From contig CAIYSL010000028.1 in NCBI GenBank assembly GCA_903928915.1, positions 1-52,562 on the forward strand: a stretch of 52,562 bases of DNA, given 5' to 3'. This stretch comes from an uncultured Syntrophobacterales bacterium (GTDB lineage Bacteria > Desulfobacterota > Syntrophia > Syntrophales > UBA5619). This document shows, in pieces, positions 758-5,557 of the stretch (position 1 is its first letter; every line of letters begins with the position of its first letter). The translations under genes and the position numbers were made by a program. The notes below the pieces were generated by a model, which was not told where the DNA came from, did not search any database, and saw only the letters and a program-made list of their open reading frames with translations.

Positions 758-785
758 TTGACAAGCGCAAATTTAGTTGTATCAT
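758..785 (+). promoter_or_regulatory. sigma-70-type promoter of the marR-hgcAB operon
   Basis: A perfect -35 TTGACA lies at 758-763. A -10 TATCAT (5 of 6) lies at 780-785, with a 16-bp spacer. Transcription would start near 792, which is the A of the regulator's ATG, so the mRNA would be leaderless or nearly so. The -10 element is inside the palindrome at 776-790. Confidence 0.65.
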
Positions 786-790
786 ACAAC
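776..790. promoter_or_regulatory. 15-bp palindromic operator over the -10 element
   Basis: GTTGTAT-C-ATACAAC is a perfect inverted repeat around one central base. It has the size and TTGTAT/ATACAA half-sites typical of MarR-family operators. It covers the -10 box and ends one base before the ATG of the MarR-type gene. This predicts that the regulator represses its own operon, including hgcAB. Binding is inferred. Confidence 0.6.
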
Positions 791-791
791 C

Positions 792-1289
792 ATGACTACG
801 AATCGCGACAGGAACTGCCGGGAGTTTTTTGAAATCATCATGACCCTCTCCCGGGAGATACGGTGCTGCAGCCGGGACGATACGATCTGCCAGGGTCTCA
901 CCTTTCAGCAGTTCATCATCCTCGATGCCGTCGTGCGGGAGGGCGAACTGGCCTTTACGGATCTTCACCGGCTGCTCTCCGTCGAGAAGAGCACGACTAC
1001 CCGGATGGTAAACCCGTTGATCAGGCGGGGCCTGCTCCGGCGCGAAACGGCGATGCACGATTCCCGCGCGGCGACGCTTACGGCGACCCCGCAGGGGAGG
1101 GAGGTCCACGGGGAGGCCTGGGACTGTCTGGAAGGGTTTTTCGACGGGATCGTGCAGGGAATCCCGCCGGGTCGGCGGAACGAAGTGTTGGCGGCGATCA
1201 GGGTATTTACCGAAGCCATGAAACGGGCGGCAGCGGCGTGCCGCTGCTGCGACGAGAGCATAAAGGAGAGTTCATGGAGCAGGGGATGA
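792..1289 (+). CDS. MarR-family regulator, cysteine-rich, of the hgcAB operon
   Basis: A 165-residue winged-helix protein. The recognition region runs about residues 50-95 (SVEKSTTTRMVNPLIRRGLL, then a wing with HDSRAATLT), and helical dimerisation ends flank it. Eight cysteines are visible, at 9, 25, 26, 33, 112, 150, 152 and 153. The vicinal CC near the N-terminus and CRCC near the C-terminus suggest thiol, metal or metalloid sensing, which is inference. I chose ATG 792 over an upstream TTG at 777 because the promoter and operator occupy that stretch. There is no Shine-Dalgarno sequence, in keeping with a leaderless start. The 3' end overlaps hgcA by 16 bp, so the two are co-transcribed. 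ArsR-type regulators are known beside some hgcA genes; a MarR-type one is less familiar to me. Confidence 0.88.
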   Translation: MTTNRDRNCREFFEIIMTLSREIRCCSRDDTICQGLTFQQFIILDAVVREGELAFTDLHRLLSVEKSTTTRMVNPLIRRGLLRRETAMHDSRAATLTATPQGREVHGEAWDCLEGFFDGIVQGIPPGRRNEVLAAIRVFTEAMKRAAAACRCCDESIKESSWSRG

Positions 1290-2449
1290 TGAATCGGCCG
1301 GATCCACAGGCGAACCGCGGGACCGGACCGGACATCCTTCCGCTCCTGCCCGGGGCTGTCTGCTGTCCGGCGGGGGAGGAGACGGGGCCGAAACTCCCCT
1401 CGCGGGAGCAGGCCTTCGTGACCGGTTCGGTCGAGACCCCGGCCGGCCGCCTGCCCCGCGTGTCATCGCGGCTGGAACGGCGGGACCGCTGGGGGGCGAT
1501 CAAGGCCCGCTGGGGGATCGGCCGGATGGGTTACACGCTCGACCCGGGGCTATACGCCCTGGGCGTCCCGGATGGGGAGTCGCCCGTGCTGGTCAGCGCC
1601 AATTACAAGCTGAGCTTCGATAGGCTGCGGAGCGCGCTGGCCGGCAGGGACGCCTGGATACTCGTCCTCGACACGAAGGGGATCAACGTCTGGTGCGCCG
1701 CGGGAAAGGGAACCTTCGGGACTGAAGAATTGGTCCGACGGATCGAGTCGATCGGCCTGAAAGAGGTGGTCGGCCACCGGTCGCTGATCCTGCCCCAACT
1801 GGGGGCGCCGGGTGTAGCCGCCCATACGGTGAAGAAGCTCTCCGGGTTCGGCGTCAAGTATGGGCCGGTCAGGGCCGATGACCTTCCGGCCTACCTCGAC
1901 GCCGGCTGCCGGGCCACCGAGGCGATGCGCCGGAAGGGCTTCACGCTCACCGAGCGGGCGGTCCTGATCCCGATAGAATTGATCGAGGCGGTCAAACCGA
2001 TGCTGATGATCTCCCTCGTCCTGTTCTTTCTCTCCGGCATCGGCGGCCCCGGGGGCTTCTGGGAGAACGCCGCGGCATACGGTACCTTTGCGGTAGTTGC
2101 CCTGCTGAGCGCCGTCGCGGCGGGGGCCGTGCTCAACCCCCTCCTGCTGCCCTATCTCCCCGGACGGGCATTCGCGACGAAGGGACTCTGGCTCGGTGCG
2201 GCCGTGGCGGTTACGGTGCTGGCGCTGAAAGGGTTCGACCCGTCGGTCTGGACGGGGCGGCTGGCCATTGCCGCGTGGCTGCTGGTCATCCCGGCCGTGA
2301 CGGCCTATCTCGCCATGAATTTTACCGGCTGCTCCACCTACACCTCCCTGTCGGGGGTGTACCGGGAGATGCGCTGGGCGCTTCCCCTGGAGATCGGCAT
2401 GGGGCTGACCGGCCTCGTCATCTGGGTGGTGTCGCGTGCGATCGCATAG
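1274..2449 (+). CDS. hgcA: HgcA, corrinoid protein of mercury methylation
   Basis: HgcA carries a corrinoid cofactor and transfers a methyl group to Hg(II), with HgcB re-reducing the cobalt. The signature cap-helix motif NVWCAAGKGTFGT is at residues 138-150, with the cobalt-ligating cysteine at 141. It lies in a conserved corrinoid-binding domain (about 45-235) that begins FVTGSVETPAG. Five membrane helices fill residues about 243-390. The protein has 391 residues, longer than the 338 I recall for the Desulfovibrio ND132 protein. The extra length includes a variable N-terminus with a CC pair at 30-31. ATG 1274 follows AAGGAGAG at 1263-1270 and lies inside the end of the marR gene. The domain alone would also fit the acetyl-CoA pathway CFeSP, but the cap helix and membrane part are specific to HgcA. 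Confidence 0.96.
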   Translation: MEQGMMNRPDPQANRGTGPDILPLLPGAVCCPAGEETGPKLPSREQAFVTGSVETPAGRLPRVSSRLERRDRWGAIKARWGIGRMGYTLDPGLYALGVPDGESPVLVSANYKLSFDRLRSALAGRDAWILVLDTKGINVWCAAGKGTFGTEELVRRIESIGLKEVVGHRSLILPQLGAPGVAAHTVKKLSGFGVKYGPVRADDLPAYLDAGCRATEAMRRKGFTLTERAVLIPIELIEAVKPMLMISLVLFFLSGIGGPGGFWENAAAYGTFAVVALLSAVAAGAVLNPLLLPYLPGRAFATKGLWLGAAVAVTVLALKGFDPSVWTGRLAIAAWLLVIPAVTAYLAMNFTGCSTYTSLSGVYREMRWALPLEIGMGLTGLVIWVVSRAIA

Positions 2450-2459
2450 GAGGACAGGG

Positions 2460-2786
2460 ATGGAGCGGCTGACGTACCTCAAGGACGTGGTTACCCTGAA
2501 GCTCGACGAAGCCAAGTGCACCGGCTGCGGCATGTGCCTGGAGGTCTGTCCTCATGCGGTGTTTCGGATGAACAGCCGGCACGTGGAAATCCGGGACCGC
2601 GACGCCTGCATGGAGTGCGGCGCCTGCAGCAGGAATTGTCCGGTCGGGGCCGTGTCCGTCAAGAGCGGCGTCGGCTGCGCGGCGGCGGTGATCAATGCCC
2701 TGCTGGGCAGAACCGACCAGCCCTGCTGCGGCCCCGGCGATTGCGGATGCTCATCTGCGGGCAACACAGGGGCGGCGTGCTGCTGA
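2460..2786 (+). CDS. hgcB: HgcB, 2[4Fe-4S] ferredoxin of mercury methylation
   Basis: A 108-residue ferredoxin, the electron donor that returns HgcA cobalt to Co(I). Two full CX2CX2CX3C motifs bind 4Fe-4S clusters: Cys 20/23/26/30 and Cys 50/53/56/60. The HgcB-typical segment after the second cluster is present, with a lone Cys73 in SGVGCAAA. The tail carries Cys 89-90, 95, 97 and 107-108. A C-terminal cysteine pair is known in HgcB and is thought to pass Hg(II) to HgcA; six tail cysteines look unusually many. ATG 2460 has AGGAGG at 2448-2453, 10 bp after the hgcA stop. Together with hgcA this is the diagnostic pair for methylmercury formation. Confidence 0.95.
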   Translation: MERLTYLKDVVTLKLDEAKCTGCGMCLEVCPHAVFRMNSRHVEIRDRDACMECGACSRNCPVGAVSVKSGVGCAAAVINALLGRTDQPCCGPGDCGCSSAGNTGAACC

Positions 2787-2847: not shown

Positions 2848-4376
2848 CAGCGCCTGGCCAGCTCCTGCCGCACCGCCTGGCCGATCTTCTCCATCACGTA
2901 GGGCTTGCGCACGTACGGTCCGGCCCCCAGTGCCTGCGCCTGGTTGACGCGTTCCGTCTCCGAGAAGCCGCTGACGATGATCGCCTTCTGCCCGGGACTG
3001 ATTTCCAGTATCCTCCGGTAGGTGTCCAGACCGTCCATGGCCGGGTCCATGATCATGTCTAGGACGATAAGGTCGGCCTTCTGCGTCTGGAGGAAGGAAA
3101 CGGCCTCTTCGCCGCTCGCAACGGTCGCGACCCGATAGCCGAGCCGCGTCAGCATTTCCGTGGCGAGGTTTCGCTGTTCCTCCACGTCGTCCACGACGAG
3201 GAGAAATTCTCCCCGGCCCGTGTAGGAGCCGGGCGACGGCTGCTCCCGGCGGGCCTCGCGCTCTTCGCGCGTAGTGGGGAAGTACAGGGTGAACCGGCTC
3301 CCCTCGCCTTCGACGCTCCGGACATCGATGTACCCACTGTGGTCCTGTACCGTCCCCCAGACCACGGTAAGACCGAGACCCGTTCCACTGCTGCGCCCCA
3401 TCACCTTCTTCGTGTAGAAGGGCTCGAAGATCTTCTCGATGTCGACGGCGGAGATCCCCATGCCGGTGTCGGAAATCTGAAGCACCGCGTATTCTCCGGC
3501 CGCAACGTCGGTATACCCGCGCAGCGGCGCATCGAGGGTGCGGTTCTCCGTGCGGATGACCACCTCTCCCCGGCCGGTGATGGCCTCCAGCGCGTTGCCG
3601 ACGAGGTTCAGTACCGACTTGCCCAGATGAACCGGGGATCCCTTGCTGTTGAGCAGTTCCGGATCGAGCTCAACCCGGAAGACGACACCGGGATGATCGG
3701 CCTGGAGCTTCCGGAATTCCGGGGTCTGCATGCACTGGGAGACGATGGCGTTGAGGTTGACGACCTCCGCGACGGTGACCCCCCGCCTGCCGAGTGTCAA
3801 CAGGTCCTGGATGATCGCCGCTCCGCGCTTGCCCGCGTGATGGATGTTCGCGATCGATTCCCTCCAGGGGCTGTCGGAGGGGATCTCGAACAGCAGGAGT
3901 TCCGAATACCCCACGAGAACCCCGAGGACGTTGTTGAGGTCGTGCGCGACCCCCCCGGCAAGGACGCCCAGCGCCTCCATCTTCTCCGCCCGGCGGAGCA
4001 GCGCCTCCAGTTCGTTGCGTTCCTCCTCGGCCTTCTTCTGCTTCTTGATCACCTCGTGGAGCTGTTCGTTGCTCGCCCGGAGCTCCCGGGTCTGTTCGGC
4101 CACATTCCGTTCGAGTTCGGTGTGCGCCGTGAGGAGATTCTCCTCTGCCTCGTAAAGGGCCAGTGCCATCCGGAGGATGACGATCGTGCAGATCGGCGCG
4201 ATAACGGCGGGCGCGAGCAGGGAAACGGCGAGGCCGACCAGATTGAAGGCGCCGAAGATGTGCGTAACGAGCAGGTAGATGGAAAGGGAAACGACGATCG
4301 AGAACAGGGTGACGATCAAGGTGCCGGCCGTCATGCCCAGCCGGGATACGAGGGTGCGGATGATCTGTATTTTCAT
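2847..4376 (-). CDS. hybrid sensor histidine kinase with C-terminal receiver domain
   Basis: A 509-residue membrane kinase. Two hydrophobic helices (about 13-38 and 44-72) are followed by a coiled coil (75-130). The phospho-acceptor His145 sits in AGGVAHDLNN. The GHKL ATPase domain shows an N-box NALEAI, G1 DTGMGIS and G2 GTGLGL. A receiver domain starts near 391 with the acidic pair 396-397, phospho-Asp440 in LIVLD and Lys491 in VRKPY. No periplasmic sensor domain is visible, so the signal may be sensed in the membrane or cytoplasm. ATG 4376 precedes the first membrane helix directly; an ATG 147 bp upstream would add a polar stretch without coding character. No partner regulator is adjacent, and the target is unknown. 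Confidence 0.88.
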   Translation of the reverse strand: MKIQIIRTLVSRLGMTAGTLIVTLFSIVVSLSIYLLVTHIFGAFNLVGLAVSLLAPAVIAPICTIVILRMALALYEAEENLLTAHTELERNVAEQTRELRASNEQLHEVIKKQKKAEEERNELEALLRRAEKMEALGVLAGGVAHDLNNVLGVLVGYSELLLFEIPSDSPWRESIANIHHAGKRGAAIIQDLLTLGRRGVTVAEVVNLNAIVSQCMQTPEFRKLQADHPGVVFRVELDPELLNSKGSPVHLGKSVLNLVGNALEAITGRGEVVIRTENRTLDAPLRGYTDVAAGEYAVLQISDTGMGISAVDIEKIFEPFYTKKVMGRSSGTGLGLTVVWGTVQDHSGYIDVRSVEGEGSRFTLYFPTTREEREARREQPSPGSYTGRGEFLLVVDDVEEQRNLATEMLTRLGYRVATVASGEEAVSFLQTQKADLIVLDMIMDPAMDGLDTYRRILEISPGQKAIIVSGFSETERVNQAQALGAGPYVRKPYVMEKIGQAVRQELARR

Positions 4377-4642
4377 AAGCCCGCCAACGTTCTCAGCCTC
4401 GGGAACCTGAGGTGCAACAGCGCAATGTTCGACTCTGATCGCGAATCGGAGAACAGGATTACGGTGAGGAACAGGTGTATTTGGCGCTTTCCTTTTACCA
4501 GCATCGAGCCGTCCCGGCAACATTTTTACGGCCCGCTGCGTGGCCGCCCGCCCTGACGGCCCTGCTGCTCTTTATGCCGACGGTCCCCGCGTCCTATGCG
4601 GCCCCCCCTGCATTTGTTGTGGCAAACGGCTCCGCGACACGC

Positions 4643-4648
4643 TATGAT
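4643..4648 (+). promoter_or_regulatory. possible -10 element upstream of the QueG-like gene
   Basis: TATGAT at 4643-4648 would place the transcript start near 4655, just before the GGAGGTGA ribosome site at 4665-4672. No good -35 stands at the right distance (TTGTGG at 4617 leaves a 20-bp gap). The rest of 4377-4675, between the two divergent genes, shows nothing else I can name. Confidence 0.25.
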
Positions 4649-4675
4649 CGAGCCATCACTCCCCGGAGGTGAACC

Positions 4676-5557
4676 ATGGCTGACGAAGCGAGCGTGCCCG
4701 GCAACCCGGCGGCATGGATCGGCGATTGTATCCGCCGGTATGTGGCGTCCCGTGAAAATGACCTGCGGCTCGACGACGGTCCCGAGCCGGCGTGGGATGA
4801 GCCGCTCATCGGCTTTTCCCGCGGCAGCGACCCGCTGTACCGGCGGTTCAAGGAGGACATCGGCCCGTTCGTCTGGACTCCCGAGGAGATCTTCGCGGCC
4901 ACCTTCCCCGCCATTCCGGTTACCCCGGACGAGTTGACTGTGATTAGCTGGATTCTCCCGCAGACGGAGCTCTCCCGGCGCGACAACAGCCGGGAGGCTG
5001 CCTTCCCCGCCAGGCGGTGGGCCCATTCGCGCAAACAGGGGGAGGAGTTCAACGTGAGGCTCCGCGGCCATATCGTCGATTCTCTCCGCGCCGCCGGGGT
5101 CGAGGCGGTCGCGCCGATGGTATCGCCGCTCTGGAAGTGGGAAACATCCGCCCGCTACGGCTACGCCTCCTCCTGGTCGGAGCGGCATGCCGCCTACGCC
5201 GCAGGTCTGGGGACCTTCGGGCTCTGCGACGGCCTGATCACTCCCCGGGGGAAGGCGATGCGCTGCGGCTCCGTGGTCGCGCGAATCGCCGTTCTCCCGA
5301 CGGAGCGTCCCTATGACGACCACCACGCCTATTGCCTCTTCTATCACGACGGCAGCTGCGGCAAATGCATCAAACGCTGCCCGGCGGGCGCCATCACCGC
5401 CAAGGGGCACGACAAGGAAAAATGCAAACGGTACCTCCACGAGGTCCTCGCCCCGTACACCCGCGCCACCTTCGGCCTGGACAGCCATCCCTGCGGCCTC
5501 TGCCAGACCGGCGTCCCCTGTGAAGCAAAGAACCCCGTCCCCGGCCGGACGGGTTGA
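4676..5557 (+). CDS. epoxyqueuosine reductase-like [4Fe-4S] protein
   Basis: A 293-residue soluble protein resembling the core of QueG and reductive-dehalogenase-type corrinoid enzymes. Residues about 185-215 carry HAAYAAGLGTFGL and ITPRGKAMRCGS, the stretch that lines the cobalamin pocket in QueG. Cluster ligands follow in CGKCIKRCP with a later Cys in KEKC, and in CGLCQTGVPC near the C-terminus. It is shorter than QueG (usually about 350-380 residues with HEAT repeats). The HEAT part is absent, so true tRNA-queuosine function is doubtful. Many anaerobes carry such stand-alone paralogues of unknown role. ATG 4676 has a strong ribosome site GGAGGTGA. It appears monocistronic. Confidence 0.75.
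   Translation: MADEASVPGNPAAWIGDCIRRYVASRENDLRLDDGPEPAWDEPLIGFSRGSDPLYRRFKEDIGPFVWTPEEIFAATFPAIPVTPDELTVISWILPQTELSRRDNSREAAFPARRWAHSRKQGEEFNVRLRGHIVDSLRAAGVEAVAPMVSPLWKWETSARYGYASSWSERHAAYAAGLGTFGLCDGLITPRGKAMRCGSVVARIAVLPTERPYDDHHAYCLFYHDGSCGKCIKRCPAGAITAKGHDKEKCKRYLHEVLAPYTRATFGLDSHPCGLCQTGVPCEAKNPVPGRTG

Follow-up and report, generated by a model that had tools for sequence, protein, structure and literature searches.

Dedicated transcriptional control of hgcAB, the gene pair of mercury methylation, is a known kind of regulation, and in the locus described here it would be exerted by a cysteine-bearing repressor of the MarR type. What switches hgcAB on would be a direct clue to the native purpose for which anaerobes keep the genes. 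In Pseudodesulfovibrio mercurii ND132, an ArsR-like regulator encoded upstream of hgcAB and co-transcribed with it is reported to control hgcAB and to respond to arsenic (Gionfriddo 2023, as summarized in PMC10349881). A putative regulator immediately upstream of hgcAB in 112 genomes is reported to be conserved, with transcripts seen together with those of hgcAB (McDaniel 2020, PMC7438021); the main text of that article does not give its family, and it could belong to the MarR family described here, to HgcC or to another. HgcC (NF040962, AbrB/MazE-like HgcAB-associated protein) is a small DNA-binding protein with conserved cysteines, also encoded upstream of hgcA. MarR genes directly upstream of hgcA are mentioned in one sentence for Dethiobacter alkaliphilus and Geobacter daltonii (2023, PMC10349881). 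Within the MarR family itself, MexR and OhrR combine cysteine-based sensing of oxidant signals with repression of a linked operon, and the zinc repressors AdcR/ZitR bind metal through a cysteine and residues near positions 107-112.

The window, i.e., the whole stretch of 52,562 nucleotides analyzed here, is contig CAIYSL010000028.1 of a 4.34-Mb Syntrophales draft genome, for which Syntrophales relatives were found by searches. On its plus strand, a promoter, an operator, marR, hgcA and hgcB form a single unit at 758-2786, as judged from the sequence. The marR-type gene (792..1289) encodes a protein of 165 amino acids with MarR domain matches in Pfam (MarR_2, 42.8 bits, 5.7e-11, cut-off 27; MarR, 32.5 bits, cut-off 24.6) and eight cysteines, at positions 9, 25, 26, 33, 112, 150, 152 and 153, which include a CC and a CRCC group. 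The hgcA gene (1274..2449) encodes the corrinoid protein of mercury methylation (NCBIfam NF040863, 471 bits, cut-off 275), whose cap helix NVWCAAGK, encoded at 1685-1708, fits the pattern NVWC(A/S)(A/G)GK. The hgcB gene (2460..2786) encodes a ferredoxin (NF040864, 121 bits, cut-off 99) with two [4Fe-4S] motifs of the form CX2CX2CX3CP, a VGC, and a C-terminal cysteine tail ending in CC. The 3' end of marR and the 5' end of hgcA share 16 bp (1274-1289); a Shine-Dalgarno sequence for hgcA, AGGAG (1264..1268), lies within marR, 5 nt 5' of the ATG at 1274, and that of hgcB, AGGAGG (2448..2453), lies 6 nt 5' of the ATG at 2460. An earlier annotation by a model that saw the sequence without database searches (the sequence-only reading) had described this unit as a MarR-type regulator gene overlapping a complete hgcAB pair. 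Every one of its coordinates was reproduced, the eight cysteines with their CC and CRCC groups, the 16-bp overlap, the cap helix and the HgcB motifs with the tail cysteines were all found as it gave them, and both HgcA and HgcB score above the NCBI curated equivalog cut-offs. Formation of methylmercury by the organism is predicted from the hgcAB genes of this draft genome.

The regulator resembles that of ND132 in having a winged helix and in being encoded upstream of hgcAB, but the ND132 protein, as far as the citing summary describes it, belongs to the ArsR family (PF01022), whereas a Pfam search at 0.001 gave no PF01022 match for the protein in the window. To our knowledge, the two share no operator. 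HgcC differs by its swapped-hairpin fold, which is unrelated to MarR, and NF040962 is not among the NCBIfam matches of the regulator; it matches the protein at locus L076 instead. AdcR/ZitR have the MarR fold but use a mixed His/Glu/Cys site for co-repression by Zn(II), whereas in the window protein cysteines predominate and release is predicted; its score against NF038251 (AdcR/ZitR) is 17 bits, far below the cut-off of 175. MexR and OhrR share the fold and differ in their cysteine positions, their oxidant signals and the lack of hgcAB, and the score against NF052638 (OhrR) is 22.6 bits (cut-off 200). No NCBIfam model names the family of the regulator; the best match scores 41 bits where the cut-off is 200.

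The promoter consists of a -35 box TTGACA (758..763) and, after 16 nt, a -10 box TATCAT (780..785), which together match 11 of 12 consensus positions; shuffled sequences led us to expect 0.1 such promoter-like sites by chance in the region. Overlapping the -10 box is the palindrome GTTGTATCATACAAC (776..790), a perfect 7+1+7 repeat of the form GTTGTAT-N-ATACAAC that ends one base 5' of the marR ATG, and by pattern search it is the sole perfect copy in its own 4.34-Mb genome. Two weaker palindromes there (L121 and L122) were dropped, as they stand at the same level as the reversed control pattern. The layout recurs in the relatives. TTGAC stands at identical spacing in nearly all orthologous loci, the operator core is conserved as TATnAT, and each of the 44 orthologous loci whose upstream DNA can be read, the window's among them, carries the operator exactly or in a near form. 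A script matched 39 of these; at 29 of the 39, 12 bases separate TTGACA from the operator, and likewise at 29 the ATG lies one base 3' of it. The remaining five, close kin of the window, carry GTTGTATnnCACAAC and were checked by eye. Among 155 genomes the perfect palindrome occurs in 32 copies in 30 genomes, against one copy of the reversed control pattern, and 29 of the 32 lie at the marR-hgcA locus, adjacency being judged by comparison with the regulator search. With the layout present in 44 of 44 loci and 32 perfect copies against one control, it is far beyond chance, and the visible operator at 776-790 of the sequence-only reading has thus become a conserved site nearly exclusive to the marR-hgcA locus.

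No Shine-Dalgarno sequence precedes marR, and the A of its ATG lies 7 nt past the -10 box, at the expected transcription start. Because the ATG falls where transcription would begin, the marR-hgcAB mRNA is predicted to be leaderless, and the overlap of the operator with the -10 box, one base before the marR ATG, further predicts that it is autorepressed. A TTG at 777 was rejected as the marR start, since it lies inside the operator while the ATG at 792 is conserved. At one locus (L097), two tandem operator-like sites, GTTGTACCTTACAAC and then TGTTGTAGGATACAAT, are found before marR-hgcA, upstream of position 1731.

MarR genes are common and their neighbors are often unrelated, so that a general MarR with other targets might stand beside hgcA by chance. 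We searched HgcA in the order and in GTDB contigs, and the regulator with profile A1; the order and class sets are the same 155 genomes, and nearly all genomes compared are draft metagenome assemblies with gene starts assigned by rule. Of 56 strong regulator matches in these genomes, 53 directly adjoin hgcA on its 5' side, less than 1 kb away and in the same orientation. The three exceptions are G045, a piece at a contig edge; G138, whose frame contains a stop; and G059, a fragment of 68 residues. Conversely, the class has 77 hgcA matches, with the regulator present at 53 and absent at 24. The comparison of hgcA neighborhoods that the sequence-only reading had proposed thus upholds the linkage, and together with the overlapping genes and an operator nearly exclusive to the locus it refutes a chance neighborhood, which we regard as barely credible.

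Outside the class, strong regulator matches directly precede hgcA at L134, L136 and L137, and three more MarR sequence groups do so at L139/L140/L141/L143, at L189/L195/L196/L201/L207 and at L199/L202. A MarR gene before hgcA hence occurs in several families of the phylum and in several sequence groups. The first of these three (L139-L143) may be of the kind seen in D. alkaliphilus and G. daltonii. The tree of the hgcA-linked MarR groups shows three changes, and a single origin is compatible with its starred branches, trees of 150-residue proteins resolving deep branches poorly. The sequence-only reading had taken a cysteine-rich MarR neighbor with a visible operator to be little described; this stands for the operator and the cysteines, whereas MarR beside hgcA was already noted for the two isolates, in a report that, although it concerns the same family in the same place, gives no operator, cysteine or linkage analysis (PMC10349881). 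In the literature on hgcA regulation, in which few subscription papers were covered, we found no description of the operator, the family-wide linkage or the cysteine site. At L201, a reading frame weakly like arsM (455-1288; 46.7 bits, phmmer) precedes the marR-hgcAB unit.

Three cysteines of the regulator are conserved almost without exception among 46 orthologues: Cys33 (codon 888-890) in 46, Cys112 (1125-1127) in 45 and Cys152 (1245-1247) in 45. Cys26 is kept in 41, Cys153 in 38 and Cys25 in 35, and the other conserved columns lie mostly in the winged helix. The cysteines to which the sequence-only reading had drawn attention therefore include the conserved ones. In a wider set, a cysteine at the Cys33 position is found in 55 of 55 hgcA-linked MarRs and in 2 of 10 relatives in other contexts, and at least two tail cysteines in 52 of 55 against 0 of 10, a contrast that is if anything understated because the ten relatives were picked for their similarity to a profile that itself has cysteines. 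In the same set, Cys112 is absent from the more distant hgcA-linked groups, and the L137 and L207 MarRs have no tail cysteines. An AlphaFold2 monomer model of the regulator (pLDDT 82; below 50 for residues 156-165) has helices at 4-27, 38-50, 55-62, 66-78, 100-122 and 126-149 and a two-strand wing, and its top structural match is MexR (Z 15.3 over 136 residues). The protein is thus modeled with a MarR fold, including the alpha1, alpha5 and alpha6 helices of the dimer domain. In the model, the end of alpha1 carries Cys25 and Cys26, the loop between alpha1 and alpha2 carries Cys33 and the middle of alpha5 carries Cys112; Cys152 comes just past alpha6, in a tail of low confidence.

Such cysteines might be structural, holding Zn(II) or an Fe-S cluster, while the effector is an ordinary small molecule in the MarR pocket. 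The Zn(II) ligands of AdcR/ZitR, Cys30 and residues at about 107-112 (PMC6372160), roughly match the places of Cys33 and Cys112, a hint from a short profile alignment. Yet the hgcA-linked groups differ in how many cysteines they have and where, whereas the loop cysteine is kept throughout, a pattern that a soft-metal sensor fits better than a fixed structural site, and we consider the structural reading improbable. Alternatively, the same repressor could respond to reactive sulfur or redox state, with disulfide or polysulfide links tying hgcAB to the redox conditions of the habitat. Cysteine-based sensing of sulfane sulfur is reported for MexR, OhrR, MgrA and E. coli MarR (PMC11211675), several of the regulator's cysteines are paired, and MexR is its best structural match; but Cys33 and the tail pair lie off the redox positions of MexR (Cys30 on alpha1 and Cys62 in the alpha3-alpha4 loop). 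By hand alignment, they presumably also lie elsewhere than the redox Cys15 of Bacillus subtilis OhrR. A reactive sulfur or redox signal is possible and, in our opinion, somewhat doubtful.

The reading that we favor, and hold to be probable, is a dedicated, autoregulated repressor-operator-hgcAB operon that senses thiophiles and is released by a soft one, most likely a trivalent arsenical. A MarR-fold dimer would bind GTTGTAT-N-ATACAAC across the -10 box and the start point and silence its own gene and hgcAB, carried on one leaderless mRNA. A soft thiol-seeking species would then bind or modify a cysteine site composed of Cys33 with Cys112 and/or the Cys152-Cys153 tail, and the loaded dimer would leave the operator, so that marR-hgcAB is transcribed. 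We infer repression and release from the position of the operator and from the general behavior of the MarR family. As(III) or methylated As(III) would be the likeliest signal, reactive sulfur or redox the second and mercury the third. The sequence-only reading had likewise seen a thiol-reactive metal, arsenic or redox signal as a possible direct control of hgcAB, and its interpretation is supported by the linkage, the conserved palindrome and the conserved cysteines.

The choice of a trivalent arsenical rests in part on the nearest MarR relatives that are not beside hgcA, which keep the loop cysteine pair and adjoin arsM-like and ArsP-type permease genes at five loci in all. The L142 MarR adjoins a truncated open frame for an arsM-like methyltransferase (248 bits, NCBIfam cut-off 263), and those at L144, L148 and L149 adjoin permease genes of the family PF03773 (ArsP_1), L187 likewise by likeness. 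Among NCBIfam names, SaoE and the SO_0444 Cu/Zn exporter come nearest to the permeases beside L144, L148 and L149, but neither match reaches its cut-off, so that an arsenic role is suggested by Pfam family PF03773. These neighbors are genes of arsenic type rather than sulfur or peroxide genes, which speaks against a sulfur or redox signal. The other two grounds for the arsenical are the ArsR regulators that replace MarR at the same place and the reported arsenic-responsive case in ND132 (as summarized in PMC10349881). Against the favored reading speak the absence of any arsM above cut-off from the window's own genome, the 24 hgcA loci of the class without the regulator, and the lack of Cys112 or of tail cysteines in some hgcA-linked MarRs. 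The MarRs at L144, L148, L149 and L187 form a sister group with a CC in the alpha1-alpha2 loop and a CC in the wing, possibly an undescribed metalloid sensor.

Another proposal is that mercury, as Hg(II) or methylmercury, is the specific signal that releases the same repressor, which would make hgcAB mercury-induced. As in MerR, a site of three thiols would in principle be able to bind Hg(II), and HgcA at MarR loci also bears an N-terminal cysteine pair. We think this unlikely, as the relatives stand with genes of arsenic type, no mer gene was noticed on reading the loci by eye, and the hgcAB regulator of ND132 is reported, in the summary available, as ArsR-like and arsenic-responsive (PMC10349881).

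Other regulators occupy the place of the MarR gene before hgcA, i.e., ArsR-type genes with an invariant CC at L034, L060, L098 and L106, and HgcC (AbrB-type, with conserved cysteine pairs) at L076 and six other hgcA loci. ArsR is scattered over four distinct branches of the hgcA tree. A Smithella locus (L060) has an ArsR gene with a CC (4567-4956) directly before hgcA, where its close kin carry marR, and is nested within a clade of MarR-bearing loci; L034 falls into a small clade with L030, where marR survives as a short stump. Such exchange suggests that the swapped regulators share one job. More broadly, we put forward tentatively that hgcAB across anaerobes is placed under dedicated thiol sensors drawn from no fewer than three families (MarR, ArsR and AbrB-type HgcC), swapped on one operon and all reading one soft-metalloid signal, e.g., As(III). 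If so, the native job of HgcAB would belong to the handling of arsenic or of thiophiles in general, and mercury methylation would be a side reaction. At L030, about 45 codons are left of the decayed marR (1194-1340); they follow an operator-like start (LFHTTM) and immediately precede an intact hgcA, and hgcAB there may be constitutive. In a Dehalococcoidia genome (L118), an arsM-type gene (4032-4907; 368 bits, cut-off 263) stands directly before hgcA.

The family offers a defined repressor, an operator of 15 bp and specific cysteines that recur in dozens of genomes from syntrophic candidate methylators, so that the signal could be read with purified protein or with a reporter in a laboratory strain, without growing a methylator. 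The regulator genes can also serve as markers that distinguish methylators by their mode of regulation. The HgcA of the window has an extra N-terminal stretch with a CC at residues 30-31. HgcA at MarR-bearing loci in general has about 45-60 extra N-terminal residues (window 1274-1450), in which a CC or CxC pair is usual; among related loci with rule-assigned starts, at least two cysteines precede the HgcA core at 39 of 45 MarR-bearing loci versus 10 of 45 without the regulator. This N-terminal cysteine pair could be a thiol site for metal delivery.
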